A DNA stretch of 64,000 nt from Fulvivirga marina. Lineage in GTDB: Bacteria; Bacteroidota; Bacteroidia; Cytophagales; Cyclobacteriaceae. The position numbers were made by a program, and so were the translations under genes. Shown one piece after another: positions 1 through 31,534 of this stretch (position 1 is the first letter of the stretch; each line of letters begins with the position of its first letter). The notes under the pieces were generated by a model, which saw only the letters and a list, made by a program, of their open reading frames with translations, was not told the origin of the DNA and ran no database searches. The stretch lies in contig NZ_JAEUGD010000066.1 of assembly GCF_016775155.1 (NCBI RefSeq), positions 532,833 to 596,832 of the forward strand. Direction: 5' to 3'.

Positions 1-2081
1 TTCACACCTTCTTGATAAAGGGCTGCAACTTTCTTATAAAATGACAGCTTTTTCGTGCTTTCAATCAGCCTGTGTACTGTAATCTGCGGTATATTTTCCT
101 GCCATTGGTATAGTTTATCCGACAAGATCCCTTCGCTTCCGACCTCTAGGAAAACAACCTGTTGTGAGTTAACCATTGACTTCACGGCTTGCAGGTATTT
201 GTTTTCATCTAAAGGATGTGCCGACAGGTCATTGCTCAAAATAATTTTGATCGCATCATCGACAGACAGCCCGTCAACAATCACCTGCTTGGTCACTTTT
301 CCTATTCCGGTACCTATTATGGTATTAGCGGATATCCCGGTAGCCTTTAGCAAATGAAATAGTCCGTATTGATATGCAAACAACTGCAAGTCTTTCGAAT
401 CAGCATATTGAAAAATCTTCTTGTTCAGTTCTTCAAGGCTGTTTTTGAAAACGGTATGTTGGTCTGACAACCGCTCAATCGTACTTTTCTCTACTTGGGA
501 GTTAGAAAATAAGAGTACCAGATTTTTAATAGTTACCTTGCTGGTTGCAATATCACTTTTTGCATTTTGGTTCTCAAATTCAGCCAATTGATCTATTAAA
601 TGCTTTTTATCAGCAGCTGCAAATGCCAGCCTGTAGGCATGATCATCCCTTCCGCTATTAAGGGTGGCAACGGTATCGTGCAAAGTGTCTTCGGACGTTG
701 CCAGGTGCTTTTTAATTCTGGTTAAATATTCAAGACAGGCAGTTGGTGTCTTTGCCGAAATCTTCAGGATGTTTGCAGGATTAGCTATATTTTCCTGCTT
801 ACTTTTTAGTTGAGGGCTTTGCTCCAGCACGAGGTGTGCATTGGTACCGCTCAGTCCAAAAGAGCTTACTCCACACCTTAGGGGGCTGCCTTCTGATTTC
901 CAGTCTTTTAATTCCTTGTTTACATAGGCTGCCGAACTGTCAAAGTTTAAGTAAGGGTTTGGCTTGTTAAAATGTAAGGATGGAAATAGTTCACCATGCT
1001 TTAATGAAAGTATACATTTGATCACCCCAGCCATACCGGCGGCGTTGTTGAGGTGGCCAATATTTGTCTTCACTGAACTTACCGCGCAAAACTGCTTCTT
1101 ACTGGTATATGCTTTGAACGCATCGCTAATTCCCTGGAATTCTATAGGGTCACCTAATTTTGTACCTGTACCATGAGCTTCTATATAGGCTACTGACTCA
1201 GGTGCGACTGAGGCATTTTTCCAGGCCTTTATGAGTACCTCCGATTGTGCCACCGGGCTAGGTGCGGTTAAGCCGGTTGACCTTTTTCCATCATGATTGA
1301 TCGCTCCTCCTCTGATCACGGCATGGATGGTATCTCCATCTTCCAATGCCTTGTCCAACCGTTTCATAAAGAGCATGCCTCCTCCTTCTCCTCCTCCGGT
1401 GCCATTAGCATCAGCATCAAAAGTTTTACTTCTGCCATCTGGTGAAAGAATCCCTACCTGGCTAATGTTATTGCCCAATTCGGGGAATGAGATAATAACA
1501 AAAACACCTCCGGCCAATGCACTTGAAATATCTCCGCTAATCAGTTTCTGACAGGCCTCATGCACCGCTACTAATGATGATGAGCATGTAGTATCGATCA
1601 TCATAGCCGGGCCTGTTAAATTCAAATAATAGGATATACGGCCGGCTGTAATGGCACTCAGGTTTCCGGTCATAGCCACGGCATCAAAATCCTCGATCAG
1701 TGAGCCATAGTCTGAAGAGGGTCTGCTGCCCAGAAATACTCCGGTGTCGGCCCCTTCCATGCTCTTGAGGCTATACCCTGCATGCTCTATCGCCTGGCAG
1801 GCCAGCTCCAGTGACAGGCGCTGTTCCGGATCCATCAGGTCCGCCTCCTTCTTGGAAAGATCAAAGAATTTATGATCAAAAAGGTCTACCCTGTCCATGT
1901 GGGCTGTAACCAGATAATGACCATGAGGATTGATATGTGAATGTATCATCCGGCTTTGGCTAAGCTCTCTGACACTGTCACGTCCCGACTTTAAATTTTG
2001 ATAAAATGCACCTATGGTAGGAGCTTCAGGGAATACCCCGCTCATACCAATGATTGCAACCGCATTTTTGTTATTTTCCAT
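1..2081 (-). CDS. Type I polyketide synthase, N-terminal part (KS plus vestigial AT), runs off the left edge
   Basis: About 693 residues are visible; the C-terminus lies outside the window. Residues 7-430 are a ketosynthase that should condense an acyl thioester with an extender unit. Its catalytic triad is visible: Cys166 in DTTCSSSL (usually DTACSSSL), His303 in HGTGT and His343 in NIGHL. Next comes the usual KS-AT linker and an acyltransferase-like segment, but the nucleophile motif GHSxG reads GTGIG at residues 590-594, so the serine is missing, and the FPGQG-type entry motif is also lost. The start overlaps the end of the preceding gene by 11 bases, which suggests translational coupling. 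It is the seventh visible gene of the operon and follows an NRPS that ends in a carrier domain, so it probably elongates the finished peptide. Whether it has reductive, carrier or release domains cannot be seen. Confidence 0.9.
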   Translation of the reverse strand, partial: MENNKNAVAIIGMSGVFPEAPTIGAFYQNLKSGRDSVRELSQSRMIHSHINPHGHYLVTAHMDRVDLFDHKFFDLSKKEADLMDPEQRLSLELACQAIEHAGYSLKSMEGADTGVFLGSRPSSDYGSLIEDFDAVAMTGNLSAITAGRISYYLNLTGPAMMIDTTCSSSLVAVHEACQKLISGDISSALAGGVFVIISFPELGNNISQVGILSPDGRSKTFDADANGTGGGEGGGMLFMKRLDKALEDGDTIHAVIRGGAINHDGKRSTGLTAPSPVAQSEVLIKAWKNASVAPESVAYIEAHGTGTKLGDPIEFQGISDAFKAYTSKKQFCAVSSVKTNIGHLNNAAGMAGVIKCILSLKHGELFPSLHFNKPNPYLNFDSSAAYVNKELKDWKSEGSPLRCGVSSFGLSGTNAHLVLEQSPQLKSKQENIANPANILKISAKTPTACLEYLTRIKKHLATSEDTLHDTVATLNSGRDDHAYRLAFAAADKKHLIDQLAEFENQNAKSDIATSKVTIKNLVLLFSNSQVEKSTIERLSDQHTVFKNSLEELNKKIFQYADSKDLQLFAYQYGLFHLLKATGISANTIIGTGIGKVTKQVIVDGLSVDDAIKIILSNDLSAHPLDENKYLQAVKSMVNSQQVVFLEVGSEGILSDKLYQWQENIPQITVHRLIESTKKLSFYKKVAALYQEGV

Positions 2082-3321: not shown

Positions 3322-3371
3322 TCAAATAAAAATTTTAGGTTCTTAAACAGTTTGCTTTTTATCTCCTATCA

Positions 3372-6300
3372 CTATACTTCAAATCCTGTAATTTCCATCA
3401 TATTGGCGCCTTCTAAAAAGTGGCTTAATTCACCTATTGACGGATATTTAAACAGGTCCATGACTTCGATATCCGGATACTCTTCTTTCAACCTTTCATG
3501 CAGCATGATGATCTTCAAAGAACTTCCTCCGAGATCGAAAAAGTTATCGTCTATCCCTACACTTATATCTCCCAATAAAGCCTGCCAGAGCTCTACCATT
3601 CTCTCTTGCAATGCGTTTTGCGGAGCTCGATAATGACTGATCACTACCAAATGGTTACTTGTAGGCTGAGGCAATGCCTTCTGATCAATTTTCCCATTGG
3701 TGGTCAAGGGTAAGTTTTCCAACCTCATATAAAAGGTTGGGAGCATATAAGCAGGCAAATGCTGCTGCAAAAAGGCTTTAAGTGCACCGGACTCCAGTTC
3801 TGTTTCACTGGTGTAATAAGCCGCAATCTTAAAGTTTCCTTCTGTTTTTAAAATGGTAACAGCGGCAGTTTTTATAGATTCATGCTGTAAGAGCACGTTT
3901 TCTATCTCTCCCAGTTCTATACGCTGACCGTGTATCTTTACCTGATTATCTCTCCTGCCATGATAAACGATATTTCCATCTGTCATCCAATGGCCAATGT
4001 CACCAGTAAGGTATACACGCTGTGGAGCATCTGCTCCAAAATCTGCGGTAACAAACCTTTCACGGGTCAGGTCTTCCCTATTCCAATAGCCTCTGGCCAG
4101 TCCGATACCTCCAATGGCGATCTCACCTAAAACGCCTTCGGGCTGCAATTGCATATGATCATCAACAATGAATAGTTGCGTATTGGCAATGGGCTTACCG
4201 ATAGGTATAATTTGATCGCCATGTTGTATGTGATAGTGACTCACATCTATACTGGCTTCTGTAGGTCCATACAGGTTGTAGAGATCTGCAGACAGCTTGT
4301 TATGAAACTTGCCCGCAACCGCTGCTGATAATGCTTCTCCGCTACAAATTACGCGTTTCAGGGCACTCAGGCTGTTTGCCATTTCATCGTCCAGACCTTG
4401 AAGGAAGATCTGTAACATGCCTGGCACAAAGTGTACCGTGGTAACCCCATGATCAGCTATGCAGCTCACCAGCTGCCGAACGTCATAGATTACCTCCTGA
4501 CGGCATAAAACCTGCCTTGCGCCATACATGAGAGGCATGAATAGTTCCCATACAGATACATCAAAAACGTAGTTCGTCTTTTGAAGGATTACATCTTTTT
4601 CTGAGAAATCATACTGCTGCCACATCCACTCCAGCCTGTTTACCGCACCGCGGTGCTCAATCATTACACCTTTAGGCTGCCCAGTGGAACCTGAGGTATA
4701 AATGACATAGGCCAGGTCAGTAGATGAAGGACCTTTCGAAAGGTTGTTTGTGGGGTATTTAGAAATGGCCTCCCAGCTTCCTGGCGTAATGGCCCTGCAA
4801 TTTCCTAATTCCAGATCTCTGGTCTGACCTTCATCAAGTATCAGACACTTTGCCTGAGTATCTTCCAAAATAAAGCTGATCCTGGCAGCCGGATAGTCCG
4901 GCGCTATGGGCACATAAGCTCCTCCGGCCTTCAAAATACCTAACAGGGCTATGATCATCTTCTCTGATCGATCCATCAGGAGGCAAACCAGATCGTCTTT
5001 GCTTATAGCCATCTCATCTTTCAGATAATGTGCTACCTGGTTGCTTAACTGGTTAAGTTCACCATAGCTTATGCTTACATTTTCAAACTGAACGGCTATT
5101 GAATCTGGTGTTTCCTCTGCCTGCTTCTCAAACAGACTTACTATAGTTTCTTTATTTGTGTACTCAACCGGAACTTCATTGTGTCCGGTTAGCAGATGTT
5201 GCTTATCCTCTGATGACAGATATTCCTGTGAAGCCAACGGTTTTTCCGGGTCAGCAAGCAGTTGTGTTATCAACTGTTGGTAATGGGCAAGAAACTGCGT
5301 TACCCATGCCTCAGGGAAAAGGTCTGTATTGTACTCAAGACTCACCTCGATATCATCTTCCTGAGCTCTGAAATGGAAGGTCATATCATACCTGCTGGTA
5401 TCCGTTCCTTCTTGCAGTTGATCAATGGAGATACCTTCAACCTTCGGAATAGCCTGCTCTTCGCTTTCCTTATCATGTAAAACCATCATGATATCAAAAA
5501 GTGGTGACCGGTCAAGGTCTCTGGATAGATTCAGGTCTTCTACCAACTGATCGAAAGGATATTCCTGATGACCAAAGGCTTCAATGATATTGCGTTTGGC
5601 ATTTTCCAGCAACTTGGCAAAGCTTTGCTGACTATCTATTTGATGTCTTAAGGGTAACAGGTTTAGATACAGACCTATCTGGTTTTGGAGTTCCTGGCGA
5701 GACCTAAGCGTAGCCGGAGTACCTATCACTATATCCTCCAGTCCTGTATATTTATGGAGTATTGCACATAGAGAGCTGTATAAGGTCATAAACAAACTGG
5801 CCTCCCTGGTTTTACAAACCTCCATAACCTGCTCGCTTACCTGCCTGCCCAATGACAATTTTGCTATGTTGCCATTGTATGTCTTCAGTTCCGGTCGGTG
5901 AGTGGTCACTGCAAAATCAACTTTGCTGGCTGGCTTTTCAAATAAGCTCACCCAATAAGCCTTGTGCTGCTCCCATGCACCTGATTCCAATTGTGTATTT
6001 TGCCAGGTTGCAAAGTCCTTGTATTGTATTTTGAGCACTTCGGGTCGGGTCTCTTCTCCTGCTGCTATATTTTGATAAAGCTGAAGGAGTTCTTTAACCA
6101 TTATTGGCATAGACCACTCATCACCAATGATATGATGCATGTTGAATACAAGCACGTATTTATCATTCCCCAAATGCAGCACATGCACTTTGATAAGTGG
6201 CCCGTGGCTAAGGTCAAACTTCATTCCGAAGATTTCCGAGGCTATTTCTTCGCTTCTTATCCCTGCATTTTCTTCCTTACCAAGGTCCGTGTATTCCAGT

Positions 6301-9300
6301 GCAGAATCGATTCCGGTTTCAATTCTTTGCTTTAGTATGCCACTCTGCATGTGGAATGTCGTTCTCAAGGACTCATGACGGGCTATCAACTCGTCGAAAG
6401 CCTGGGCAAGATGGTTTACCTGTAGCTTACCTTCAATAGCAAAAGCTAAGGGGAGGTTATAGGCTGCAAAGTCTGTATTCATTTGCTCAAGCACCCACAA
6501 TCGTCTTTGAGCATTGGTGGTCTCGTAGAATTCCTGTGCTTCTACAGGTTTCAGATCATCTTCAATTTCTTCTGATGACTCGATGAGACGTGACAGCGCT
6601 TCTATGTTAGGGGCGTTGAAAAAACTGGCGAGATCAGGCTTAACATTGAATATATCGGCTACTTCTGCGAGGATCTGTATCGCTTTGAGCGAATGCCCTC
6701 CCAGATCAAAGAAGTTATCATGAATGCCTATGTTTTCTCTTCCCAGTATTGACTCCCAACTTCTAACAAGCACCTTTTGGATGTCGTTCTGAGCTGCGAC
6801 ATGATCTACCGGTGCGTTTCTCTCATTTTCAGGGTGTGGCAGTTTGCCTGCATCTACTTTTCCACTGTTATTCAATGGAAACTTATCCACTGCTAGAAAG
6901 TAAGCGGGCATCAGGTAATCAGGCAGGTAGCCTGACATATGGTTTCTCAAAACAGTATTAGAAAGCTCTTCCGAAGCTATATAGTAGGCCGTCAGGTAAG
7001 GTAATCCACCCTTGCTCTGATGAGTAGTTGCAAAAGCGTCCTTTATTTTATCATGGCCAATGAGGCTGGATTCGATCTCACCCAGCTCTACTCTATGGCC
7101 ATTTATTTTCACCTGGGTATCTGTTCTCCCTAAAAACAGCAGTTCGTCATCGTCTGACCATTTGACCCTGTCCCCGGTGCAGTACATTTTAACACCCTCT
7201 TCAAAAGGGTTGTTTACAAAGCTGGCTGAGGTTAACTCTTCATTGTTGAGGTACGCCTTTGCCAATCCTTTGCCTGAAACATACAGTGTACCTTCTACAC
7301 CTTTGGGAACCAGTTGCAGGTCTTCATCCAGAATATAAACTCTGGTGTTGGCAATTGGACGGCCAATAGGGATGGTAGTTCTGTCTTTATCCTCTGGTTT
7401 TACCTTATAAGTTGAAACACAAACAGCGCATTCGGAAGGCCCGTACGCATTGTAGCAGTCAACAAATTGACTCAGATAGGTTAAATCTGCAACATTAGCA
7501 GCTTCTCCGGCTGTAATCAATACCCTGAGGAAATGTAGTTTTTCAAGGTTAAGGGTACTCAGAAATGACGGTGGGAATGTGACAACACTCACCTTTTTAT
7601 CCTGAAGGTATTGCATGAATCCCTGCTGGTCATAGAGAAGGGCTTTGTCATGCAGTACGAGGGTGGCTCCTGCATAAAAAGCCATAAAAATCTCCGATAT
7701 GGATGCATCGAAAGATAGTGAGGCAAACTGCAACACCTGATCTTCGGAACTTATATTAAATATCTCCGTCTGCGCCATGGACATATTGACCTGGCTTTCA
7801 TGCTTAATGACCACACCTTTGGGTGCACCGGTAGATCCGGAAGTATAGATGACATAAGCCGCATCAGTGGGTTCATTAACGGACGGAAGGTTTTCAGGGT
7901 GTGCTTCCAGGTCTGACCATTGTATATCCAGGGCGAAAATAGCACCTTGATAAACTGTCATCACCTCATCGAGTGTACCCATTTCAGTCAGCAATAACTT
8001 GACCTCCGCATTTTCCAGGATGTATGCTTTCCTCTGTACCGGCAAATCTGCATCGATCGGAAGATAAGCAGCTCCGGCTTTCATGATAGCCAGTATGGCT
8101 ACTATAGCGAGTTCATTCCCCGGTGCCATTAAGGCTACTACATCATTTGGTTTGATACGGAGTTCATTTCTCAGGTGAAATGCCAGGCTGTTAGCCTTTT
8201 CATTGACTTCACTGTAGGTCAGCACCTGATCATTGTAAACTATAGCCTGAGCTTGTGGTGTTTTCTGTACCTGTGCTTCAAATAATGCATGTATACAGGC
8301 GGGAACCTCAAAGTCTCGACTGGTATTGTTCTTTATATGCATGAGGTCCTGAACCTCATCATCAGCCAGGTAGCTTAATGTTCCAATAGCTTTTGACGGA
8401 GCTTCCAGAGCCGCAGCAATCAATTGTTTGAAATGCCCTACCATACGATGGATGGTTTCTTCCCGGAACAGGTCTGAGTTGTACTCAAACATCATGTAGT
8501 ATCCTCCCTCCGACTTTTCAAACACCATTCTGATATCCAGGGCACTCTGATGAAATCCGCTGTCGTAGGTGTCCAGCGTAATCCCTGACATTTCATTGTC
8601 TTTCTTTTCAATATCCAGGTTTAACAGCACCAGGGCTACATCATAAATTGGTGACTTGCTGGTAACACGTGGGATATTTAAATCTTCAACCAGGCGATCA
8701 AACGGATATAGCTGATGGTCAAATGCGTTAAGTGTAGTGGTCTTTAGTTTTTCGAGCAGCGAGTTGAAACTGTCTTCATTTTCAAATTGTGACCTGAGCA
8801 CAATGTTATTGATGTAGAATCCCACCTGATTATCCAGGTCCGAGTGCTCACGACCAGCCACGGGCGTACCTATAATGATGTCTTTTTGCCCTGAGTACTT
8901 ATAGAACATCACTTTGGTTATGCCTAGCAGAGCCATAAATAAACTGGCTTTGTGCTGCTTGGCAAGAGCTTCCAGTTTGTCCATCAGTTCATCGTCAATG
9001 AAGCTTTTAACGACACCGCCGCTGTAGGTTTTATAAACAGGCCTTGGAAAATCGGTTGGAAGATCTAATACCGGCAGATCGCCGCTAAGGTTTTCCAGCC
9101 AGAAGGCTTTATGCTTATCAATTTTTACGTTGTTTTCCAGCAGTTCATTTTGCCAGTGTGCAAAGTCTTTGTATTGAACCTTGAGTGATGGCAACGGGCT
9201 TTCCTCACCACTGAGGTATGCATTGTAAAGCTCAAAAGCTTCATTGATCAGCAGTTGCAGCGACCATGCATCGCTAATGATGTGATGTATGGTGAAAGAA

Positions 9301-14831: not shown

Positions 14832-14878
14832 GTTCTTGATATTGTCAATATCTCTATGCCGCAGATAGGTGGCTATTC

Positions 14879-17800: not shown

Positions 17801-18154
17801 CAACCTGGCGCTAGCGGATTCAAAATCAGCTTTCGAAATTATCAGCACTTCTGGTTGGCACTGCTCAAGGATCTGCTTTAATCGCTTATCAGAAAACTCA
17901 TCGCTTAATGGCACATATATATGTCCTGCTTTAAAAATGGCCAGCAATGACGATACCAGATTTATGCTTCCCGGCAGCATGGTACATACTTTCTTCCCTC
18001 CATTCCCGAACCTTAAAAGTAAGGCTGCCAGGTCATCGGCCTGGGTGTTAAGTTCCGAATAAGTGACCTCCCTACCCTCACCTGATAAGGCCAGGTTATC
18101 AGGTAGTTTTGCTGCAGTTTCCTCAAACCACTGATGTATATAATCGAACTTCAA
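14879..18154 (-). CDS. Monomodular NRPS, A-PCP-C
   Basis: 1091 residues. Adenylation domain first (YTSGSTGEAKA near 171, FDASLRDIF, NLYGTTETT, VKVNGIRVEL, LTINGKVDRRAL), then carrier domain (GGTSLKA near 567) and condensation domain. The C-domain motif reads HHIVFDA near 760: the second His and the Asp are kept but the final Gly is Ala. Pocket residues read by hand are D-A-R-H-L-S-L-L-I; five positions agree with the Ser code D-V-W-H-L-S-L-I-D, but Arg239 and Ile331 do not, so I leave the substrate open. It probably adds the second amino acid. It follows the asparagine-synthetase-like gene by 98 bases. No epimerisation domain, so an L-residue is expected unless an external racemase acts. Confidence 0.95.
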   Translation of the reverse strand: MKFDYIHQWFEETAAKLPDNLALSGEGREVTYSELNTQADDLAALLLRFGNGGKKVCTMLPGSINLVSSLLAIFKAGHIYVPLSDEFSDKRLKQILEQCQPEVLIISKADFESASARLSAVNYRPACLILLDGNSDIELYSYSSGSWHLVPQNDDLPKASPQELTDDSYIFYTSGSTGEAKAILGSHRSLSHFIHWESSEFEIDDKHKVSHLVHPVFDASLRDIFLPLCTGSTLCIPDRAIMQNPVQLVQWIENNNITLIHCVPSVLRVITDEIADDSQQRFKSLQYMLVSGEPLYAQDVRKWRGKVGTHVELVNLYGTTETTLIKTFHRVEAEISDDQHMIPVGKPISNTVVAIVNNQHLCQPGEIGEVFIKTPFWSKGYLFNEALNQQVFVQNPLIAGREDIVYKTGDLGVYLKNGSIEIKGRLDQQVKVNGIRVELGEVEHVLLGVEGVEQAVVTSHQDESGTVMLAAYYTGQERTPEEIRQYLSRELNQNIIPGHIQYLKELPLTINGKVDRRALPKPGDLLKKSLSYEAVQGATEEKLEQMWEAILDMDKIGRNTSFFTIGGTSLKAIRLISSIYKEFGIMLKVFDVFSNPTIAKMALLLGDAPQKGYKEIIKLPASDRYPASFQQKRLWILDQFEKEQVTYNMPNAFELRGTIDHKALLAALNDVVMRHESLRTSFVMEDDILYQRVQEDIPAGFEARYIDVSTMAESETEAKAILSEELNYHFDLSKAPLFRALVIRTSEDSVILYFNTHHIVFDAWSTYVMARDILSLYNMNTKPGTPALEPLKIQYKDYAAWLTEQLADKKETDERFWLAEFENEIPTLNLPVDHARADKQTFEGSKYKFQLDEQLSAQIEAYCKAQDVTQFNLLLASVEALFYYYTGQKDVVLGIPVTGRHHNNLEDQIGFYVNTIAFRMQFSPDTTVSDFVKQVKKKSLKTYEHGMYPFDQLVDKLQTGSDISRSSLFDVMVQMQDTDLKELSLMLPDDIEMSEVALDFKSSKFDLTFNFEVLKDKKVLSGWIEYNTALFTTGTIEQMHQIMTTILTEITEQERSELTLKQLKQSLNSRFNGQSDVKSDAFSSMEISEDF

Positions 18155-20127: not shown

Positions 20128-20275
20128 TCCAGATTTGTATATTTTAATTTGACATTGAAATCATTAATCGCCTAAAAAGGCTCACTTTCATGACTTTATA
20201 CACAACTTGTCAAGCTGTATGCTAAAGCCAACGTTTATTAACTTACAGACTCATTCCTGTCCCCACACTCCTACA

Positions 20276-23200
20276 TCATATCTCATCGAGTGGTTTAAGG
20301 AACTCGTTTAAAACATCAGTATTTTCGCCAAGTGGCAATAATTCCTGACTGGATATTTTTATAGCCGAGTCTTCACAAGCCTTTTCCAGTATAAAAATGA
20401 AATCATCCCTCAGCTTCTCAATTGTGGAAGTAAAAAACAGATCCGTATTGTACTCCACGTCTATGATAATTTCACTTTTGCTTTGAGTGAAATTAAAAGT
20501 AAGGTCATACTTGCTTATATCAATGTTGGTTTCCATTACATTCTCCCTGATATAGTCAGTATATTCATTGTTCTTAAGGGTTTGATGCGTATCCTGCATC
20601 TGTACCATTACATTGAACAAGCCCGTCCCTTTTAATTTGTTACTCTTCTCCAGGTCATCCGTTAGCATAGCAAAAGGGTATAATGCATGTTGCTGAACGT
20701 CGATTATATTTTTCTGCGTTTCTGCAAGAAAATCATCAACAGCCTGGTCCTGATTAAACACAGACCTGAAAGCAACAAGATTGATATAAAAACCAATTTG
20801 ATCTTCAAGTTCTTTTTGATCTCTGCCAGCCATAGGTATACCAATCACAATATCTCCCTGACCTGAATACCTGTATAACAGGACATTGACAAGTGACATT
20901 AGTGTGGTAAACAAAGTAGCATCATTTTTATTGCCCAGTGCCAGTATCTTTTGGGTCAATTTTTCATCAACCTTGAAACTAATAACATCACCTTTAAAGG
21001 TCGGATGCTCAGGACGTTTCTTATCTACTGGCAATTCTAACGGCGATATTGTTCCTTCAAAGTATTCTTTCCAGAAGGTACGATACTTCTCCAGTTTCTC
21101 TCCTGTTAGCTGTGCATTAAGCCAGGCTGCGTAGTCTTTATAATGTATTCTTAAAGGTTCTAATGTAAGTGCTTTGTTATCCTTAATTGCACTGTATCGC
21201 AGGAAGACTTCATTGAGAAGCACGTTCATTGACCAGCCATCTGACACGATATGATGTGTGCTGCATAAAATTATATATTTGGTGTGACTGATCTTAAGCA
21301 ACTTAACACGTAATAGAGGACCTTTATCCAGTCTATATGGCTTTTCTATTTTCTCTTCATCGATAGTTCTCTGAATGGTTTCCTCATCCAGTTCACTGAG
21401 ATCTTTAAACTGTACTTTAAATCCGGTTTCTTCAAAGGGAAGTATTTTCTGCTTAGCTCTATCGTCATCCAGAATGAATACTGTCCTTAAGCTTTCATGT
21501 CTTCGAACCAGTTCTTCAAATGCCTGAACAAGTGCCTGGGTATCGAGCTCTTCATTATAAGTCAGCATTCCTGCTACATTATAAGCCACCTGCCCATCTT
21601 CAAACTGATCCATCAGCCACAAAGCGTTTTGTGCATGAGACAGGTCATAGCTATCTTTTTCAGGTAAGGCTTTGATCTCAACAGTATCGGCGCTATCCGC
21701 ATCTATTAACAGCAAGCTCAATTTATGGATAGTCCGGTTGGTGTAAAGGTCTTTAACACTGAATCGTTTGTTGTACTTTTCATAAACCCTCTTGATCAAG
21801 AGAATAGCTTTTAATGAATTACCTCCTATTTTAAAGAAATCATCATGGATACCTATATTTTCTTTATCCAGCAATTGTCTGAAAATAGCCAGAAGGTTTT
21901 CTTCCTCATCAGTAACGGGTTCATTCTTATTTCCTTCGAGTTCACTCCCAATATCCAATAATGCCACTCTATCAAGCTTGCCATTAATTGTTAATGGCAG
22001 CTCATCTATAGTAATGAATTTTGAGGGAATGGCATACTCAGGGAGTTGGTTTTGCAGAAAACTAACTAACTCATCAACTGTTAGCTCTTGGTTTTCTGAT
22101 ACCATGTAAGCGTAAAGGTCCTGTCCTCCTTCATTGTCCTGCACCATCAATGTTGCGCAGGATGAAATGCCAGGGTGTTTTAGCAGGGCACCTTCTACTT
22201 CTCCAAGCTCAACCCTAAACCCTCTGATTTTCACTTGATTATCAATTCTACCCAAAAATTCCAGTTCACCATTGAGCCACCTTCCTTTGTCTCCTGTACG
22301 GTAAAGTTTGCTGTTACGGCTAGTGTCAAGTAGATTAGAAACAAATGCTTTTTCTGTTAATTCGCTTTTTCGCCAATACCCATTCGCAAGTCCCCATCCT
22401 CCTATACAGATCTCCCCGGGTACGCCCTCGGGAGACAGCTCATCTCCCTGTAAAATATATACCTGGGCGTTGGGTATAGGTTTTCCTATCAGTACGTTAT
22501 CCCTGTCTTTTGGCAGGTCGCCTACTTTATAAAAAGTGGAGGTCATCGTACACTCGGTCGGCCCATATTGATTAACCAACAATGTGCCTTTCCCAAACGT
22601 TTCTTTTACCTTTTCTGCTGTTTTTGCATGGAGCGCTTCCCCACTCACGAGTATGAGTCTTACACTTTCATTGTGCCAATCTAATGTAGGAATAGTGGCC
22701 AGCAGGCCATTGAGCATGGATGGCACAGTACTTAATATCAAAGTGACATCATGGTCGCTAATGTGCTTTAGCAGGGCTGGAAAGTCACGGTTATCCTCAG
22801 GCATTACCAAACTGGCCCCAGATACCAGGGGTGCCATGATGTCTCGTACTGAAGAATCGAAACTTAAAGAAGCCAACTGCAAGGCTATATCGACATCAGT
22901 AAGACGATATTCGCTAATCAAATATTGCAGGTAGTTAACAGCTCCCAAATGCTTGGTCATTACTCCTTTGGGGTTTCCGGTTGTACCGGATGTATATACC
23001 AGATAAGCCAGACCTGTGTTTGATATTTCCAGTTCCGGGTTAGTTATCTTTTCTTCTGCAATTACTTTCCATTCCTGATCAATTAGGATGGCTTCTACAT
23101 CATACTCGGGCAACCGGTCAATTAGCTGTGATGAAGCCAGGAGTATCTTTGGCTCAACATCATTTAGGATATATAAAAGACGCGAAGCCGGGTTTGCTGT

Positions 23201-26200
23201 ATCTAAGGCTACATATGCTGCCCCCGTTTTTAAAATGGCCAACATTGAAATTACAGCATCTACAGACCGGTTCATAAAAATACCAACCATGTCACCTTGC
23301 TTAACGCCCTTTTTCTGCAAATAAAAAGAGAGTTGGTTGGCCTTTTCATTCAATATTGAATAGGTCAATGATTGTTGTCCATCCGTAATAGCTTTACGGT
23401 GAGGAGTTTTTACGACCTGCGCTTCGAATAATTCATGAATACACTCCTGAGGTACTGACTGTAGGCTCTCATCCTTTAGCAATGCTTGCCTTTCTGTACT
23501 ACTTAATAAGGAAAGGCTATCAATTTCTGCATCAGGCTGACTTATAATGCCTTCAATGAGGTTTTTAAAATAGTCCATAAACTTATGAACAGTCTCCTCT
23601 GCAAAAATATCTGTATTGTATATCCACTCAATGGTGATCTCTCCCTGTTCATCGATCACATTCAAATTGAGATCATAGGGTGAAAAATCCTGAGTGGTTG
23701 ATAAAATTTTAGTTTCAAGTTCAAATACCTTAGGCAGACGCGAAACTGGCTCCATATTGAAGGTCGCACTTACCAGAGGTCGCTTATTAAGGTCCGCCTT
23801 TTTCGTTAGTTCATTGATCAGGTCAGCGTAGGGGTAGCGACTATTTTCGAAGCCTTCCAACAAGGTAGAACGAGTACACTTTAAATACTCTTCAAAACTT
23901 TGTGATTGATCAAATGCCAAACGCACGGGTAGTAAACGTGAACAATACCCTACTACTGTCTGACTATTGTCATATACACGGCCTGTCTCGGGCACTCCAA
24001 TGACCAGATCATCCTGATCGGATAGTTTATGTATCAGCACACTATAAACGGAGAACAGGGTCATAAAAAGTGTGCTGTTTTGCTTCACGCTCAACTGCCT
24101 TACCTGGTCTACCAATTCTTTACCATATTTTGCTGACAGTTTATTGCCCTGATAAGTTCTTACCAGCGGTCTTTCACGATCGGTAGGTAAGTATAGTACC
24201 GGATAATCATTGGCAAATTTTTGTAACCAATATGTTTCTGCATGTTTCCATTCATCACTATCCCTGTCATTTTCCCTCAATTCAAGAAAATCGCTGTATT
24301 GCATGGCTACTTCCAACTTGGGTGCTCTTCCTTCACACAAAGCCGAGTAGATCTCTATCATTTCGCCAAGCATCAGCGAAACTGAAAGGCCATCTAAAAT
24401 AATGTGATGGACAGTGAGACTGAGTACATGCTCTTCGTTGCTCATTTTCACTAAGTGGCACCTGAACAAAGGCTCGTTTACTAAATCAAAGGGTATCCGG
24501 TTTTCAGCTCTGTTCCAAACCTGAAATGCCTTATCTGCACTCTCTTCTTTATGATCAGAAAGGTCTGTAACCGGCAGATCAACATCTGAGCGCCTTTTTA
24601 CGTGCTGTACATCTCCCTTGCTATCTATTGATGTTCGTAAAGCCTCATGTCTGTCGATAAGCAACTCCATGGCGCGTTTGAGGTTGGCCATATTAACAGG
24701 TCCTGAAAGTGCCAGACCTGAGGAGAAATTATAGACAACGGATGCCATATCGCCATCCATTTGTGCCAATATCCAAAGCTGTTTCTGTGCTTCGCAAAGA
24801 GGAAAGGTTTTTACAACATCACTGGCTGTTTGCTCTTCATTTTCATCAAACTGCCTGCTCTCCGGGAAAAAACCTCCTTGTTGTAATTCCTGAATACTTT
24901 CTTTTACTGCCTTAATAACAGCCTGCACATCGCTCTCCGTATGGGCAACAGAAAAGAAACATATTCTTCTTTCCCATGTAAACACCCCTTTTGCTATCAA
25001 AAGATAGAAAAACAGGTCCATCTCTATGGGTTGCAATAATGCAGCATACTTTCCGAATGACTCAAACCTGAAGACAGAGCCAAAATGAACCACCTTAATT
25101 GGGATTTCCAATCTGGTGAAAAATTCGTTGACCTCTGAAGCAAATTTTTCAGTAAGTCCGTTTACACGAGGGTAGATAGTTTCTCCTTCGTTTTTAATTT
25201 TCAGTAAAGTGGCTCTGGTTGTAGCTAATGCCAACGGGTGTTTACAGAATGTTCCTCCGAAGAAGGTCATTTCTGTTTCAGGGTAAGAATCATCACCAAA
25301 TTGCCACATGCCACCATCAATATGATTGAGGTATGCAGCATCTCCGGCGATAATACCTATTGGCATGCCTCCACCAACTACTTTCCCGTACAATACTATA
25401 TCTGCTTTAACCCCAAAATAAGCCTGAGCTCCCCCCTGCTGAATGCGAAAACCAGTTATAATTTCATCAAAAATCAAGGCAACTGCATTCTTCTTGGTCA
25501 CTTCACGTAACCGCTTCAGAAATTTACCAGGCTGCACGCCGGGGTTTCTGCTTTGAACCGGCTCTGCCATTACTGCTGCCAGCTCATGGGCATGTTGCTC
25601 AATAAACTCCAAAGAGCTTTCGCTACCATAGGGCAACATAATGACATCGTTGACCATATTTGGGGTAGTACCAATAGCAATAGGTACTGCATTAGCATCG
25701 GTACCATCAGGCAGGCCCAGAATTCCATCGAATGTACCATGGTACGATCCGGTGAAGATCACTATTTTATTACGGCCTGATTTGGCTCTGGCAATCCGTA
25801 ATGCTGCCATTACTGCCTCAGTTCCGGTGTTGGAAAGTACTACTCTTTCAACACCTGTTAACTCTATCAAAAGTTCAGCAATTTCTCCAGCCAGGTCAGA
25901 TTGAGTAGCCAGTTCGTAGCCCTCTTCCAATTGTTGTCTAAGGGCATCTTTTAGAAATGGTGGGTTATTGCCAAAGAAGTTTACACCGTACCCTACTGCC
26001 AGATCTATGTAATCATTTCCATCAATATCCTGAAAATATGCTCCTTCAGAGCCTTTAGAGACTATAGGATATTGTAATTCTTTAAGGGACAAACGGAAGT
26101 CTATGGAGTTAATCCAATCTACGAGGGGCTTTCTATACTGCTGAGCATAGTCCTTTGACTTTTGGGTTTTCTGGCTATACTTGGCCTGGAATTCCTTAAT

Positions 26201-29200
26201 AAACGTCTCCTGTTTGCTGGTAAGTGGTCTGTCTTCTTCAAGTTTAACGGCTTTGAACTTAACCTTTTTTGAAGCTTGAGCAGATGTGTTTTCGGCCTTA
26301 GGCGCTGTCGCTGGTAGTGGCGTAATGCTACTTGCACCATTTGACATTCCCCTTGATTCCAACAATTTCAGCTGAAGAGCAAATACATCCAGCTGTTTTT
26401 GAATAATTCCTTCTAAACTTTCGTCGTGGCCGTTGCTTTGTGCCATGGAAGCTGCACCCTGTAATTGCTTTTTGGCAGCATCCGGATCGTAGGCATATGC
26501 GGCATGATTTGTTTCTTCCCGAACCACACTAGCATTTTTCACTTCCTGTGGCAGGTTCCTATAGATATACCCGGCCAGTGATTGTATATTGTGCAATTCT
26601 TCGAAGAACTGGCGAATGGTAATGTTGATATTATATTGTTTCTCAATGGTCTGAATAATCTTCACCAATACCAGGGAATCTGCCCCCATATCCAGAAAGG
26701 ACTTCTGATCATTGATTTCCGAAATATCCATCTCCAGATTTTCGGCAATCAAAGTCTTAATACTTTTTAAAATTTCCTCTTTTTTCAAATGGGTATCAAA
26801 TTCTGTTACTGGTTCTGCCATAGGTTGTTGAGGTTGGCTATGATTACTATGCCAATACGATTTGCGCTGGAATTGATAAGTTGGAAGTACCACCCTTCTG
26901 CGGTTGTAGCATTGGTCAAAATCCTCCCAGCTTATAGGGGAGTTAGAGGTGTGGAGTTTGCTCAAAGTTGTCAGAAGGGACTCCCATTCAGTTGCCCCCG
27001 GCTTTAAGCTATAAAGGTGGCTTCTACCAGAATCAGCATCACTCTGTATTGCCAGAGGGGTTAATACTGGTTTTGGCCCAACCTCTAAGTAAACTTCACA
27101 TTTTTGGGCCGCCAAGGTCTTAAGTCCTTCATGAAAGTCTACCGGAGCAAGAATATGGTTTACCCAATAGCTCGGTGTACTCATCTCTTCTCCTGCAAGC
27201 TTTCCACTCACATTAGATATAACCGGGATCTGGCTTTTTCGATACTGAACCTGACTGGCAATTTGCTGAAAATCATCCAGCATAGGTGCCATCAACGGCG
27301 AATGAAAAGCGTGTAAAACATTAAGCTCAACAGTTTTATGGCCTTTTGCCTCCAGGCTTTGACAAATTTCAGCTAAGAGTTTTCCATCACCAGAAAGTAC
27401 TACCTGATCGGCGCTATTAATTGCAGCAATAGATATTTTGTCATCGTAATTTTCTATCTCTCCTCTTACCTCTTCCGCCGATGTAAATACGGAAATCATT
27501 TTCCCTCCCGAAGGGAGCTCCTGCATTAGCTTTCCTCTGGCAGCAGTAAGCATAAGTCCATCCTCCAGACTAAATACTCCTGCAATGCAAGCTGCCACAT
27601 ATTCTCCTACACTATGCCCTATAACTACATCAGGTACCACACCCCACGATTCCCACAACCGAGCCAGAGCATACTCCACGGCAAACAACGCCGGTTGCGT
27701 GTTAGCTGTTTCATGAATTTTGTCTTCATCACCGCCAGCATAAAGTATCTCAATAAGAGGCAGGTCAAATTTATCTTTCAACAGGTGGTCGCAGGTGGTT
27801 ATAATCTCTCTAAAATAGGCATTGGTTTCGAAGAGTTGCTTACCCATACCAAAGTACTGGGCTCCTTGTCCCGTAAAAAGAAAGGCTACTCTCGGTTCAG
27901 GTTTTAAGGATATGTCTGCATATTCAACCCCTGGTATATGAGTTTCGCTATTTAAATAGCTTTGTAGTCTACCAACCGCTTCACGGGTATTTGTAGCTCT
28001 GACGATTAATCGACATGACAGGTGAGAACGCCCGTTATTTGCCGAATGAGCTATGTCGGCAAAATCATATTCGTCATTAGACAGATACGTGAGGTATTTC
28101 TCCACCAACTGACGAAGTGCAGGCTCTGTAGCAGCAGATAAACACATGAGGTGTTCTCCTCTTTCATGCAAATCTGCAGTGGACTTCTTTATCTCTCTCG
28201 AATACTCTTCTACAATAACATGAGCATTGGTGCCTCCGAATCCAAAAGAGCTTACTCCGGCAATGCGTTTATGGTTTTCAGCGGTATGCCAAGGTTCAAT
28301 TTTTTTAGCTATTTCAATGGGTAAATCCTGAAGTGAAATGTTTGGGTTCAGCTGACTAAAATTAATTTGCGGTGGAATCTGTTTTTTATTTAACAGGATT
28401 ACGGACTTAATAAGACCTGCAATACCTGCAGCAGATTCCAAATGACCTATATTAGCCTTAGCAGCACCTAACCAATGTTTAGCAGCTTTACTACCCTGCT
28501 CTTGTATCAGAGAAACCAATGAGTTTACCTCAATAGGATCTCCCAGAGGTGTACCGGAACCATGAAGTTCAAAGTATCCTACATCATCCACGGACACTTT
28601 TGCATTTCTTAAGGCATCAGTAATAACTTTTTTCTGGGCCGGACCATTAGGCGCGGTCAGCCCATTGCTTCTTCCATCATGATTTACAGCTGTACCTTTA
28701 ATAATGGCCTGAATGATATCCCCGTCATTCAAAGCATCAGAAAGTCGCTTAAGTATAACTACGCCACACCCTTCTCCTCTAACGTAGCCGTCTGCCGTGG
28801 CATCCATGGTCTTGCATTTACCATCTTTAGACAACATACCAGCTTCATCAAATACGGCACTAACTTTAGGGTTTAAAACCAGGTTAACCCCTCCGGCAAG
28901 TACCATATCACTACTCTGGTCAATAAGGCTATGGCAAGCCTGGTGTATGGCAACAAGTGATGATGAACAGGCCGTATCTACGCTCATGCTTGGCCCGTTG
29001 ATATCAAGGAAATATGATAAACGATTAGCCACTACACTTAAAGCATTTCCTGTACCTGAGTAAGGCTCAATGTTATCCGCTTCCCAAGGTTGCAGGTGAG
29101 CATAATCATTGCTGCTGACACCAACAAAAACACCAACTTTTTTACCTGATAGCGATAAAGGGGGTATCCCTGCATTTTCCAAAGCATGCCAGCCAACTTC

Positions 29201-31534
29201 CAACAGCAGGCGTTGTTGTGGATCTGTATTCCGTGCTTCACGAGGGGAAATCCGGAAAAAGTCTGCATCAAACTTATCTACATCCTGAATGAATCCTCCT
29301 TTAAATACTGGGGATTCCTGATCAATTTCTTTTAACCACTGCTTTATTTCGCTATCTCTCCAACGTTCTTCAGAGGCTTTCTCTACTCCAAACTTACCTT
29401 GATATAGCAGAGAACTATAGGATTTGATATCCGGTGCACCTGGAAACCTACACTCGGCTCCAATGATAGCAACGTACTCATTTTCCTTGAGTGAATGATT
29501 CCGACTTACTCCTTGGTTATTGCTCTGGTTTTCCGCTAAATGAACGGCAATCTTCTCTATGGTCGGAAAGTCGTAAATGAGTGTAGGGTTGATTTCCCTG
29601 TTCAGATGGGTGCTCAATTCATTGGAGATCTCCACTGCGGCCATTGAATCAGACCCATATTCGCTTAACGGACGTTGAATATCAATGCTTTCTTTATTGA
29701 TGTGCAACGCTTTTGAAATAAGGTTAACCAATAAGTCGGTTACTTCTCTTCTAGATAGACCGGAGATTGAGTTCTCAACCGGTTTATTGTTACTTTCTGT
29801 GCCTAAATCATCACCATCCTTTTTCCATGCCCCTATAAGTGATAACTTCTCTTCACGATAGTCCTGAAGGCAGGCATAGCGCTTCAATTTACCACTAGAA
29901 GTTTTAGGGAGCGTCATGGGTTTTACCAGGCTGATGGCATCCACATCCAGATCGTGATATTTTCTTACAGCATTTCTTATGGTGCTGCAAACTTCCTGAA
30001 CATCAAGTGACCGGATAGCAGTTCTTTTAACTTCGGCCAAAACTACCAAAAACTCCCTGCCTTCTAGGGAATAGGATAAAACGGCAATTCCTAAAGGGTT
30101 TAAACATTGATCAGACTGCTCTACTGTCAGCTCGATGTCTGGCGGATAAAAATTTCTGCCTCTAATAATGATCAAGTCCTTTAAGCGCCCTGTAATATAA
30201 AGTTCTCCTTCAAATACAAAGCCTAAATCACCGGTTCGAAGAAATGGCCCCTCCCCAGTCTCTGATATATGAGCATCAAATATTTTTTCGGTCAGTTTTT
30301 CCTGCTTCCAATAGCCTTGTGCAACACTATCACCTGACACCCAAATTTCCCCTACCTGCAGTTCATCTACCCTGCGGCAGGTTGAGGGATCAACAATTGA
30401 AACTTTGCTATCACCGTCGACGGTTCCGTTGCTAACAAAAGTACTAGTGTATTTGCCTATACTAGAAGTAGCCTGCACTACGTCTCCGGTTTCCAATGAA
30501 CGACCATCAACTTCTATGCTTCCTGGCTTTTTCCTTTCACCGGAAATAAATAAAGTATTCTCGGCCATCCCATAGCAGGGTAGGAAAGACTCATATCTGA
30601 AGCCCGCTGCAGCAAACTTGTCCGTAAAACGGCTCACTGTAGAGGCTTTCACCGGTTCGGCTCCATTATATGCAACTTTCCAGCAACTTAGATCCAGGGA
30701 AGATATATCCTCTTCAGAAACTTTTTCAATACAAAGGTCATAAGCAAAATTAGGCCCTCCTGTTATTTCTGCTCTATATTTCGAAATTGCTTTTAGCCAC
30801 TTGATCGGCTTTTGCAAAAATGACATAGGTGGCAGTAAAATCAGCTTAGCACCAATTGAAATAGAACCCAGTAGATTTCCTATCAACCCCATATCGTGAT
30901 GGAAAGGCAACCAGCTTACTGCTACGGTACCCTTGGAGATCTGAAAAATATTGTTGATAGCCTTTACATTGTGTACCACGTTCCCATGACTAACCATGAC
31001 CCCTTTAGGGGCGCTGGTTGAACCTGAAGTATACTGAATGAAGGCCAGATCGTCAGGGTTTATTTCCCCAACTTTCCATTTTGATGCTTTTTCAATGTCC
31101 AGCTCCTCAATGGTAACTACCGGAAGATTTGCCAGGACCTTATAATGTTTATTTTTAGAAAGGGACTGAAACCCTTGGTTATTAGTTAAAATACATTTTA
31201 CATCTGCATCTTTTATTACGCGCTGCATAGCCTCCAGTGGCTTATTCTGACTTGGAAGCGGAAATGGAAGAGCAATCGCTCTGGCGTACATGCAGCCAAC
31301 AAAAGCAACAATAAAATCTAAACTAGAGGGAAAGGGCAATAACACAGAAGAGCCTTCCAGACCCTTTTCCTGTAATTGGACCGCCAAGGCCCTGGCTCTG
31401 GTATCCAATTCTTCAAAAGAAAGGACACCTGATTCATTGGCGCCATCCTTTAAAAAAATGAATGCCGTAGCATCAGGGCTACTCTCAGCCTGCGATCTAG
31501 CTATATCTATAAAAGATGTAAAAGTATTTTTCAC
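20276..31534 (-). CDS. Hybrid PKS-NRPS loading megasynthase: FAAL-ACP-KS-AT-ACP-AMT-C-A-PCP-C
   Basis: 3752 residues, GTG start; an in-frame TAA three codons upstream excludes a longer protein. Order: fatty acyl-AMP ligase (1-570; YTSGSTSAPKG near 168, LPFHHDMGLIG), ACP1 (YGSDSM near 628), KS (DTACSSSL near 855, HGSGT near 990, NIGHL near 1029), AT (GHSVGE near 1307, HAFHS near 1409, the malonyl-type motif), ACP2 (MGADSL near 1617), a helical linker near 1711, a class III PLP aminotransferase (FDEIITGFR near 2025, Lys near 2051), C (HHIILDG near 2377), A (YTSGTTGNPKG near 2850), PCP (GGNSLKA near 3238) and a closing C (HHIVSDG near 3429). It should load a fatty acid, extend it by malonate, transaminate the beta-keto group and couple the beta-amino acyl chain to the first amino acid. 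No ketoreductase is present, as expected for this logic. The A pocket has D-S-R at 235/236/239; the substrate is not assigned. Confidence 0.96.
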   Translation of the reverse strand: MKNTFTSFIDIARSQAESSPDATAFIFLKDGANESGVLSFEELDTRARALAVQLQEKGLEGSSVLLPFPSSLDFIVAFVGCMYARAIALPFPLPSQNKPLEAMQRVIKDADVKCILTNNQGFQSLSKNKHYKVLANLPVVTIEELDIEKASKWKVGEINPDDLAFIQYTSGSTSAPKGVMVSHGNVVHNVKAINNIFQISKGTVAVSWLPFHHDMGLIGNLLGSISIGAKLILLPPMSFLQKPIKWLKAISKYRAEITGGPNFAYDLCIEKVSEEDISSLDLSCWKVAYNGAEPVKASTVSRFTDKFAAAGFRYESFLPCYGMAENTLFISGERKKPGSIEVDGRSLETGDVVQATSSIGKYTSTFVSNGTVDGDSKVSIVDPSTCRRVDELQVGEIWVSGDSVAQGYWKQEKLTEKIFDAHISETGEGPFLRTGDLGFVFEGELYITGRLKDLIIIRGRNFYPPDIELTVEQSDQCLNPLGIAVLSYSLEGREFLVVLAEVKRTAIRSLDVQEVCSTIRNAVRKYHDLDVDAISLVKPMTLPKTSSGKLKRYACLQDYREEKLSLIGAWKKDGDDLGTESNNKPVENSISGLSRREVTDLLVNLISKALHINKESIDIQRPLSEYGSDSMAAVEISNELSTHLNREINPTLIYDFPTIEKIAVHLAENQSNNQGVSRNHSLKENEYVAIIGAECRFPGAPDIKSYSSLLYQGKFGVEKASEERWRDSEIKQWLKEIDQESPVFKGGFIQDVDKFDADFFRISPREARNTDPQQRLLLEVGWHALENAGIPPLSLSGKKVGVFVGVSSNDYAHLQPWEADNIEPYSGTGNALSVVANRLSYFLDINGPSMSVDTACSSSLVAIHQACHSLIDQSSDMVLAGGVNLVLNPKVSAVFDEAGMLSKDGKCKTMDATADGYVRGEGCGVVILKRLSDALNDGDIIQAIIKGTAVNHDGRSNGLTAPNGPAQKKVITDALRNAKVSVDDVGYFELHGSGTPLGDPIEVNSLVSLIQEQGSKAAKHWLGAAKANIGHLESAAGIAGLIKSVILLNKKQIPPQINFSQLNPNISLQDLPIEIAKKIEPWHTAENHKRIAGVSSFGFGGTNAHVIVEEYSREIKKSTADLHERGEHLMCLSAATEPALRQLVEKYLTYLSNDEYDFADIAHSANNGRSHLSCRLIVRATNTREAVGRLQSYLNSETHIPGVEYADISLKPEPRVAFLFTGQGAQYFGMGKQLFETNAYFREIITTCDHLLKDKFDLPLIEILYAGGDEDKIHETANTQPALFAVEYALARLWESWGVVPDVVIGHSVGEYVAACIAGVFSLEDGLMLTAARGKLMQELPSGGKMISVFTSAEEVRGEIENYDDKISIAAINSADQVVLSGDGKLLAEICQSLEAKGHKTVELNVLHAFHSPLMAPMLDDFQQIASQVQYRKSQIPVISNVSGKLAGEEMSTPSYWVNHILAPVDFHEGLKTLAAQKCEVYLEVGPKPVLTPLAIQSDADSGRSHLYSLKPGATEWESLLTTLSKLHTSNSPISWEDFDQCYNRRRVVLPTYQFQRKSYWHSNHSQPQQPMAEPVTEFDTHLKKEEILKSIKTLIAENLEMDISEINDQKSFLDMGADSLVLVKIIQTIEKQYNINITIRQFFEELHNIQSLAGYIYRNLPQEVKNASVVREETNHAAYAYDPDAAKKQLQGAASMAQSNGHDESLEGIIQKQLDVFALQLKLLESRGMSNGASSITPLPATAPKAENTSAQASKKVKFKAVKLEEDRPLTSKQETFIKEFQAKYSQKTQKSKDYAQQYRKPLVDWINSIDFRLSLKELQYPIVSKGSEGAYFQDIDGNDYIDLAVGYGVNFFGNNPPFLKDALRQQLEEGYELATQSDLAGEIAELLIELTGVERVVLSNTGTEAVMAALRIARAKSGRNKIVIFTGSYHGTFDGILGLPDGTDANAVPIAIGTTPNMVNDVIMLPYGSESSLEFIEQHAHELAAVMAEPVQSRNPGVQPGKFLKRLREVTKKNAVALIFDEIITGFRIQQGGAQAYFGVKADIVLYGKVVGGGMPIGIIAGDAAYLNHIDGGMWQFGDDSYPETEMTFFGGTFCKHPLALATTRATLLKIKNEGETIYPRVNGLTEKFASEVNEFFTRLEIPIKVVHFGSVFRFESFGKYAALLQPIEMDLFFYLLIAKGVFTWERRICFFSVAHTESDVQAVIKAVKESIQELQQGGFFPESRQFDENEEQTASDVVKTFPLCEAQKQLWILAQMDGDMASVVYNFSSGLALSGPVNMANLKRAMELLIDRHEALRTSIDSKGDVQHVKRRSDVDLPVTDLSDHKEESADKAFQVWNRAENRIPFDLVNEPLFRCHLVKMSNEEHVLSLTVHHIILDGLSVSLMLGEMIEIYSALCEGRAPKLEVAMQYSDFLELRENDRDSDEWKHAETYWLQKFANDYPVLYLPTDRERPLVRTYQGNKLSAKYGKELVDQVRQLSVKQNSTLFMTLFSVYSVLIHKLSDQDDLVIGVPETGRVYDNSQTVVGYCSRLLPVRLAFDQSQSFEEYLKCTRSTLLEGFENSRYPYADLINELTKKADLNKRPLVSATFNMEPVSRLPKVFELETKILSTTQDFSPYDLNLNVIDEQGEITIEWIYNTDIFAEETVHKFMDYFKNLIEGIISQPDAEIDSLSLLSSTERQALLKDESLQSVPQECIHELFEAQVVKTPHRKAITDGQQSLTYSILNEKANQLSFYLQKKGVKQGDMVGIFMNRSVDAVISMLAILKTGAAYVALDTANPASRLLYILNDVEPKILLASSQLIDRLPEYDVEAILIDQEWKVIAEEKITNPELEISNTGLAYLVYTSGTTGNPKGVMTKHLGAVNYLQYLISEYRLTDVDIALQLASLSFDSSVRDIMAPLVSGASLVMPEDNRDFPALLKHISDHDVTLILSTVPSMLNGLLATIPTLDWHNESVRLILVSGEALHAKTAEKVKETFGKGTLLVNQYGPTECTMTSTFYKVGDLPKDRDNVLIGKPIPNAQVYILQGDELSPEGVPGEICIGGWGLANGYWRKSELTEKAFVSNLLDTSRNSKLYRTGDKGRWLNGELEFLGRIDNQVKIRGFRVELGEVEGALLKHPGISSCATLMVQDNEGGQDLYAYMVSENQELTVDELVSFLQNQLPEYAIPSKFITIDELPLTINGKLDRVALLDIGSELEGNKNEPVTDEEENLLAIFRQLLDKENIGIHDDFFKIGGNSLKAILLIKRVYEKYNKRFSVKDLYTNRTIHKLSLLLIDADSADTVEIKALPEKDSYDLSHAQNALWLMDQFEDGQVAYNVAGMLTYNEELDTQALVQAFEELVRRHESLRTVFILDDDRAKQKILPFEETGFKVQFKDLSELDEETIQRTIDEEKIEKPYRLDKGPLLRVKLLKISHTKYIILCSTHHIVSDGWSMNVLLNEVFLRYSAIKDNKALTLEPLRIHYKDYAAWLNAQLTGEKLEKYRTFWKEYFEGTISPLELPVDKKRPEHPTFKGDVISFKVDEKLTQKILALGNKNDATLFTTLMSLVNVLLYRYSGQGDIVIGIPMAGRDQKELEDQIGFYINLVAFRSVFNQDQAVDDFLAETQKNIIDVQQHALYPFAMLTDDLEKSNKLKGTGLFNVMVQMQDTHQTLKNNEYTDYIRENVMETNIDISKYDLTFNFTQSKSEIIIDVEYNTDLFFTSTIEKLRDDFIFILEKACEDSAIKISSQELLPLGENTDVLNEFLKPLDEI

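Follow-up and report, generated by a model that had tools for sequence, protein, structure and literature searches.

A 134-kb NRPS/PKS operon of Fulvivirga marina headed by a NusG paralog and carrying a candidate ops-like leader element

The lipopeptides of the iturin/mycosubtilin family are heptapeptide rings, built of seven residues by assembly lines that use a separate AT. With these MycA systems, the locus described here shares a FAAL start and the combination of a KS with a class III aminotransferase for making a beta-amino fatty acyl. It differs from them by an in-cis AT, by a line in which 17 synthetase proteins are predicted to assemble about 29 residues, by the nusG gene at its head, and by a second ketide unit, a sulfotransferase and CmlA enzymes. 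Placement in the iturin family proper was rejected on account of the AT in cis and the 29 in-line A domains. In the puwainaphycin pathway, PuwE unites a PKS module, an aminotransferase and an NRPS module in one protein, within a FAAL-initiated cluster of 56.7 kb (PMC4219810). Compared with PuwE, the first synthetase of our locus (G01) has the FAAL on the same protein and no monooxygenase domain. A study of F. kasyanovii 48LL, a likely congener, reports a hybrid NRPS-PKS cluster of approximately 121 kb without a MIBiG match (BGC5), and describes a comparable hybrid cluster as silent in each of the eight media tried (PMC12565237). Identity with BGC5 was rejected, as its qPCR primers found no match with up to 3 mismatches in C63:394834-596832; the forward primer occurred in 0 of the 15 genomes of the genus.

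Extra NusG genes dedicated to long operons are also on record. Among them are LoaP, TaA, UpxY and RfaH: the first two have antibiotic operons as their targets, UpxY represents the type found in Bacteroidota, and RfaH loads at ops (PMC12691694, PMC7593976, PMC7819879). Relative to these accounts, the genus studied here has several paralogs per genome, most of them at NRPS/PKS operons, and a different 12-mer.

The window, by which we mean the whole 64-kb stretch of DNA analyzed, covers C63:532833-596832 of the host genome (6.78 Mb, 69 contigs). The first-pass annotation had read in it a large lipopeptide-polyketide locus from a Bacteroidota host, with all genes on one strand. Pfam and profile scans confirmed the order of the ORFs, their shared minus strand and the domain order, and the frames of that locus were open, free of the frameshifts that the annotation had named as a reason for doubt. 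The Bacteroidota host is supported by NusG matches, which have identical coordinates in Splendidivirga corallicola and in genome G030, a member of the host's family. F. kasyanovii has a similar set of five large clusters (PMC12565237), which makes Fulvivirga the probable genus. The gene content within its borders stood as well, and only the extent had to be redrawn: the string starts with a nusG paralog (31809-32336) and goes 102 kb beyond the left end of the window. The locus in the window is thus only the 5′ quarter of a 134-kb NRPS/PKS operon. This operon comprises 25 genes (G01-G25) plus the nusG paralog, 26 in all, and spans 134.4 kb from window position 32336 to window position -102112 in the left flank. 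All 25 genes lie on the same strand with gaps of at most 213 bp between them, none has a broken frame, and the next gene to the left encodes a MacB/FtsX permease. The nusG paralog is immediately preceded, in the same orientation, by a gene for a rhomboid protease with a TonB C-terminal domain (32819-34750). At gathering thresholds, Rfam models matched three tRNAs in the 64-kb window and nothing else.

The first operon gene encodes a NusG paralog of 175 aa (minus strand; Pfam NusG, 9.6e-22). A 274-bp gap separates it from G01 (20276-31534, as all following genes on the minus strand), whose 3752-aa product displayed the order FAAL-ACP-KS-AT-ACP-aminotransferase III-C-A-PCP-C in Pfam and profile searches. 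Its FAAL domain was recognized by profile (29843-31516, residues 7-564), and the other starter domains by both Pfam and profile: the KS (28358-29479, residues 686-1059), the in-cis AT (26942-27883, residues 1218-1531) and the class III aminotransferase (25055-26074, residues 1821-2160). The NCBIfam FAAL models stayed under their whole-protein cut-offs at G01, which is expected for a single domain within a large protein. The KS motifs inspected (DTACSSS, ELHGSGT and NIGH) were present, as were those inspected in the aminotransferase, and the AT displayed GHSVG and HAFH, a pair which we take to denote a malonyl-type AT, in support of the in-cis AT proposed before. Of the proteins with a solved structure, MycA (6kfu) is the nearest relative of the aminotransferase (E 1e-135). 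FAAL and ACP at the start of the line, a KS, a malonyl source and a MycA-type aminotransferase are all present, and the beta-amino fatty acyl starter suggested by the first-pass annotation is supported by sequence similarity. The FAAL would load a fatty acid on the first ACP, the KS and the in-cis AT would add a malonyl extension, and the aminotransferase would convert the beta-keto group into a beta-amino group before residue 1 is joined. The product would thus probably carry a beta-amino fatty acyl.

The starter logic of G01 is already known, and the earlier view that joining FAAL, KS, aminotransferase and in-cis AT is uncommon was not supported. In 79 related loci, which together contain 854 ORFs with a length of 250 aa or more, 17 ORFs had KS-AT-(ACP)-aminotransferase in one chain, including a protein of an uncultured Flavobacteriaceae with the order FAAL-KS-AT-KR-PCP-KS-AT-PCP-AMT-C. 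The starter region was matched at E up to 1e-60 in 9 of 117 relatives (own genome counted). The closest two starters, FAAL/KS/AT/AMT in both cases and with 57-58% identity in the aminotransferase region, came from genome G007 of the same genus, with FAAL to AMT on one chain, and genome G098 of the same order, with the same set on two chains; short lines follow behind both. Novelty of the in-cis AT was consequently rejected, since it occurs in some proteins of the 79 related loci, in these two genomes and in PuwE.

Downstream of the starter, G02 (18253-20127) encodes a glutamine-hydrolysing asparagine synthase, AsnB (TIGR01536, 486 bits against a cut-off of 267). Pfam and profiles identified G03 (14879-18154) and G04 (11571-14831) as A-PCP-C proteins for residues 2 and 3, and G05 (3372-11570) as A-PCP-C-A-PCP-C-A-PCP for residues 4-6. 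G06 (2071-3321) encodes an exported-looking protein of 416 aa with a CarboxypepD_reg-like domain (Pfam) and a signal-peptide-like N-terminus. G07 (1-2108, continuing to window position -8262) encodes 3456 aa with the order KS-(AT remnant)-KR-ACP-C-A-PCP-C-A-PCP. The remaining genes, G08-G25, lie outside the window up to position -102112 and were likewise read on the minus strand with Pfam and profiles, except that the reading of G15 relies on our own profiles and not on Pfam. These are TubC-C (G08), A(MT)-PCP-C-A-PCP-E-C-A-PCP (G09), TubC-C-A-PCP-C-A-PCP-E (G10), C-A(MT)-PCP-C (G11), A(MT)-PCP-C-A-PCP-ST-C-A-PCP-C (G12), A(MT, FkbM)-PCP-C-A(FkbM)-PCP-C (G13), halfC-A-PCP-C (G14 and G15), A-PCP (G16), a halogenase-like enzyme (G17), a CmlA-type enzyme (G18), halfC-A(FkbM)-PCP-C-A-PCP-C (G19 and G20), halfC-A(MT)-PCP-C-A-PCP (G21), TubC-C-A-PCP-C-A-PCP-TE (G22), a predicted ABC exporter (G23), a type II TE (G24) and a second CmlA-type enzyme (G25).

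Over the whole line, the profiles gave equal numbers of C and in-line A domains (29 each) and a single synthetase TE, that of G22. The HHxxxD motif is kept in all 29 C domains and both E domains, and the carrier serine in the 32 listed carriers. All 16 consecutive synthetase junctions were legal: each carrier or E end was followed by a protein opening with C or KS, and each C end by one opening with A. With 11 C ends and five carrier/E ends facing 11 A starts and five C/KS starts, such pairing would arise by chance once in 4368 arrangements by our own counting. A TubC-type docking domain was found at three of the four carrier/E-to-C junctions. Because every junction is legal, a single line of about 29 residues is the best reading. 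The first-pass annotation had proposed a hexapeptide; we rejected that product, since residue 6 is not followed by a TE and the synthetases beyond G05 bring the number of in-line A domains to 29, with a single TE. From the domain order, the product is probably one beta-amino-acyl lipopeptide of about 29 residues, the chain of which would pass collinearly through the 29 in-line A domains of the 17 synthetase proteins. After residue 6, the KS and KR of G07 would add a second ketide unit. Between this KS and KR lies only a remnant of an AT (residues ~500-760) without the GHSxG serine; hence the AT would have to act in trans. G16 stands outside the line order and may work in trans with G18 or G25. 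The terminal TE would free the product, probably with cyclisation. We saw no other copy of the full line among the relatives and related loci searched (the loci scan excluded the host's own records).

The A-domain pocket codes, which we read with a GrsA ruler, suggest Tyr at position 5; Ser at 6 and 13; Asn at 8, 12, 19, 25 and 29; Val at 9, 15 and 21; Thr-like residues at 11, 16, 18 and 23; Gly at 17; Cys at 27; a Val/Ile-like residue at 20 and an Ile-like one at 28. Residues 1-4, 7, 10, 14, 22, 24 and 26 (10 of the 29 in-line A codes) gave no nameable amino acid. The AsnB of G02 may feed the five Asn-coded modules.

Tailoring functions are diverse, with two E domains, two CmlA-type hydroxylases, a halogenase-like enzyme, a CurM-like sulfotransferase, and methyltransferases inserted into eight of the A domains, with nine inserts in total (four SAM-type, four FkbM and one other). 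A SAM methyltransferase splits the A core in G09, G11, G12 and G13, and an FkbM or other methyltransferase sits in the C-terminal part of the A domain in G13 (twice), G19, G20 and G21. In two Val-coded modules, the methyltransferase is inserted within the N-terminal portion of the A core; since Val has no side-chain heteroatom, this implies N-methylation or prior hydroxylation. On interrupted A domains, the limited set of papers searched yielded nothing to the point. The G12 sulfotransferase (residues ~2037-2251) follows the PCP of a Thr-coded NRPS module and precedes a C domain. Its closest solved relatives are the CurM and OLS domains (4gbm, 4.4e-63; 4gox, 1.3e-57), with which it aligns over the PRSGST and His regions. 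This sulfotransferase was matched in 2 of 395 genomes of the class, the host's own and genome G285, the latter in a different context. Proteins with the order A-PCP-ST-KS-AT-PCP-AMT-C-A-PCP-TE were seen in G285 (contig C54, locus L183) and at loci L054 and L071; the sources are two MAGs of Saprospirales/Saprospiraceae and a further genome from the host's class. Sulfation of Thr followed by elimination to dehydrobutyrine was considered and set aside as a guess, as the embedded sulfotransferases of these three loci follow non-Thr codes and precede a KS.

The position of the NusG paralog led us to consider NusG genes throughout the genus. The host genome has five and the 15 genomes of the genus 34, which separate by score into one core nusG per genome (15 genes, 86-93 bits) and 19 paralogs (53-79 bits). 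We labelled the neighbourhoods of all 19 paralogs ourselves from ORFs and profiles: 15 lie upstream of NRPS/PKS genes on the same strand, either directly or with one or a few genes between, three are at polysaccharide loci, and one is unclear. For the host paralog near C63:816k, the adjoining stretch contains nothing but small genes of tailoring type, and KS and C matches begin ~12-16 kb downstream. In the wider family, 20 chosen paralogs from 16 genomes were distributed over NRPS/PKS loci (3), polysaccharide loci (6) and others (11). One genome of the same family (G131, 8.7 Mb) has five NusG genes; a single paralog is at an NRPS locus, and the neighbours of three others are unclear. On a tree of 40 rows, the NRPS/PKS rows were clustered without forming one clade (6 changes, against a shuffled mean of 13.5; 0 of 500 shuffles as low). 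From their position, the paralogs may serve the NRPS/PKS operons where they are encoded. Such a paralog would load on RNA polymerase at an ops-like element and keep the polymerase processive across the operon, an antitermination that would let the 134 kb be read as a single transcript. No match to the Bacteroidota-type promoter TAnnTTTG was present in the 500 bp before the nusG of the window, and the limited set of papers searched gave no report of a NusG with a nonribosomal peptide in Bacteroidota.

A candidate for such an element emerged from k-mers common to the leaders. The 12-mer RGCGRAGCTGTR resembles the ops of E. coli, and its copy in the window, AGCGGAGCTGTA (31696-31685, minus strand), lies in the gap between nusG and G01, where k-mers and a pattern search located it. 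On the coding strand of 40 leaders, RGCGRAGCTGTR was exact in 15 and AGCGAAGCTGTA occurred with at most two mismatches in 19. The 15 genomes of the genus contain 73 exact matches to RGCGRAGCTGTR, compared with 22 for the reversed control pattern. Fourteen of them lie less than 1 kb from a paralog, at 12 of the 19 paralogs and always on the strand of the paralog, when 0.017 would be expected; since the pattern was chosen after viewing the leaders and orthologous leaders are not independent, this weakens the P value more than it does the contrast. The 12-mer was near none of the 15 core nusG genes, and no exact copy was found within 1 kb of 7 of the 19 paralogs. Among 20 other matches inspected, 18 were inside ORFs (on either strand) and two between genes. 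Leaders of polysaccharide-type NusG paralogs contain the 12-mer too, besides those of NRPS/PKS type. The E. coli ops12 is given as GGCGGTAGCGTG in PMC5995543. Positions 2-4 and 10-11 are identical between the two, and positions 1, 5 and 12 agree with R. Folded as DNA hairpins, our 12-mers were no better than shuffles, whereas ops12 was better than its shuffles. Leader position, coding strand and presence at 12 of 19 paralogs indicate that the 12-mer may be an ops-type recruitment element. Work published in 2024 on UpxY and the transcribed DNA in Bacteroides may describe related elements and bear on priority.

Taken as a whole, these observations are best explained by one giant operon for one collinear lipopeptide line of about 29 residues, with the NusG paralog and the ops-like element providing processivity, a reading that we hold to be reasonably probable. 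Two or more lines might instead stand side by side, with G01-G05 making a short lipopeptide (hexapeptide) and the rest other peptides. The gene for the exported protein G06 between G05 and G07 would suit such a division, as would G16-G18, which break up the later part, and the occurrence of gaps of 148 and 213 bp. However, only the G22 synthetase ends in a TE, G05 ends with a PCP, the KS that opens G07 depends on a chain from upstream, and the C domain at the end of G15 requires an A domain after it. Together with the uniformly legal junctions and the equal numbers of C and in-line A domains, this makes separate lines unlikely. Even a collinear operon might be silent or decayed, with no product made. 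Silence would resemble that of the similar F. kasyanovii cluster in eight media, as reported in PMC12565237. Decay could account for the odd A codes and for the G07 AT remnant lacking its serine. The loss of one AT, however, is common where the AT works in trans, the 25 genes show no broken frame, and the HHxxxD motifs and carrier serines are retained, so that an operon without product appears quite improbable. Judged by its sequence, the operon belongs to an assembly-line type that is already known, and is a genuine, intact and very large representative of it.

The giant operon with its own processivity factor has also to be weighed against a chance association, in which the NusG paralog would serve a capsule or another distant operon and the 12-mer would be a plain pause or promoter-region motif. 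The polysaccharide loci next to 3 of the 19 genus paralogs and 6 of the 20 chosen family paralogs speak for this, and so do the leaders at these nine loci, three of which have an element no different in sequence from that of NRPS leaders. Yet 15 of the 19 paralogs of the genus precede NRPS/PKS operons on the same strand, the paralog tree clusters by target, and all 14 of the 12-mer matches close to a paralog share its strand. We accordingly regard a chance neighbour as improbable.

The breaks between the proteins of the line provided a second lead. Five proteins (G14, G15 and G19-G21) open with a segment of approximately 250 residues whose only match is to the C-terminal lobe of condensation domains (LgrA 952-1211, E 3e-21). 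The protein preceding each of the five ends in a C domain with F/L-N/D-F in its last nine residues (for G19 the predecessor was taken to be G15, across G16-G18), a motif found at 0 of the 11 other synthetase ends. In genome G098, which belongs to another family, the protein before a half-C protein ends in NELFNFNF. Genome G013 has two half-C proteins, and their upstream tails, searched on both strands, have no F/L-N/D-F. The tail was thus upstream of the half-C in six of eight cases; a ninth half-C lies at a contig end. From this pattern, half-C and F-N-F tail may be a docking pair, in which the N-terminal half-C, as a non-catalytic lobe, would receive the C-terminal tail; this is a weaker lead than the NusG/12-mer pairing. 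Whether the genus as such has giant operons with their own NusG paralogs at the new ops-like RGCGRAGCTGTR, up to 134 kb as one unit, together with a new half-C/F/L-N/D-F docking at C-to-A breaks, is a broader proposal that we put forward tentatively, as possible and somewhat short of probable.

These findings have implications for long operons in general. The NusG/12-mer pairing offers a handle on how bacteria transcribe operons of more than 100 kb and on why Bacteroidota clusters stay silent, and the half-C/F-N-F pair, if real, would be a new docking device for NRPS engineering. Syringopeptins have up to 25 residues, and a lipopeptide of about 29 residues, if true, would exceed any NRPS product known to us; a search of a limited set of papers for a record-length product found nothing to the point. 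Its length and the mixture of its tailoring domains make the locus worth following up, and the NusG paralog with its ops-like leader element does so most of all. The host genome contains five more large NRPS/PKS regions (C64:12-96k, C64:154-208k, C63:727-816k, C63:823-876k and C55:21-79k) and 102 matches to condensation models. In three of these five regions, a NusG paralog is situated upstream, at the end of the region.
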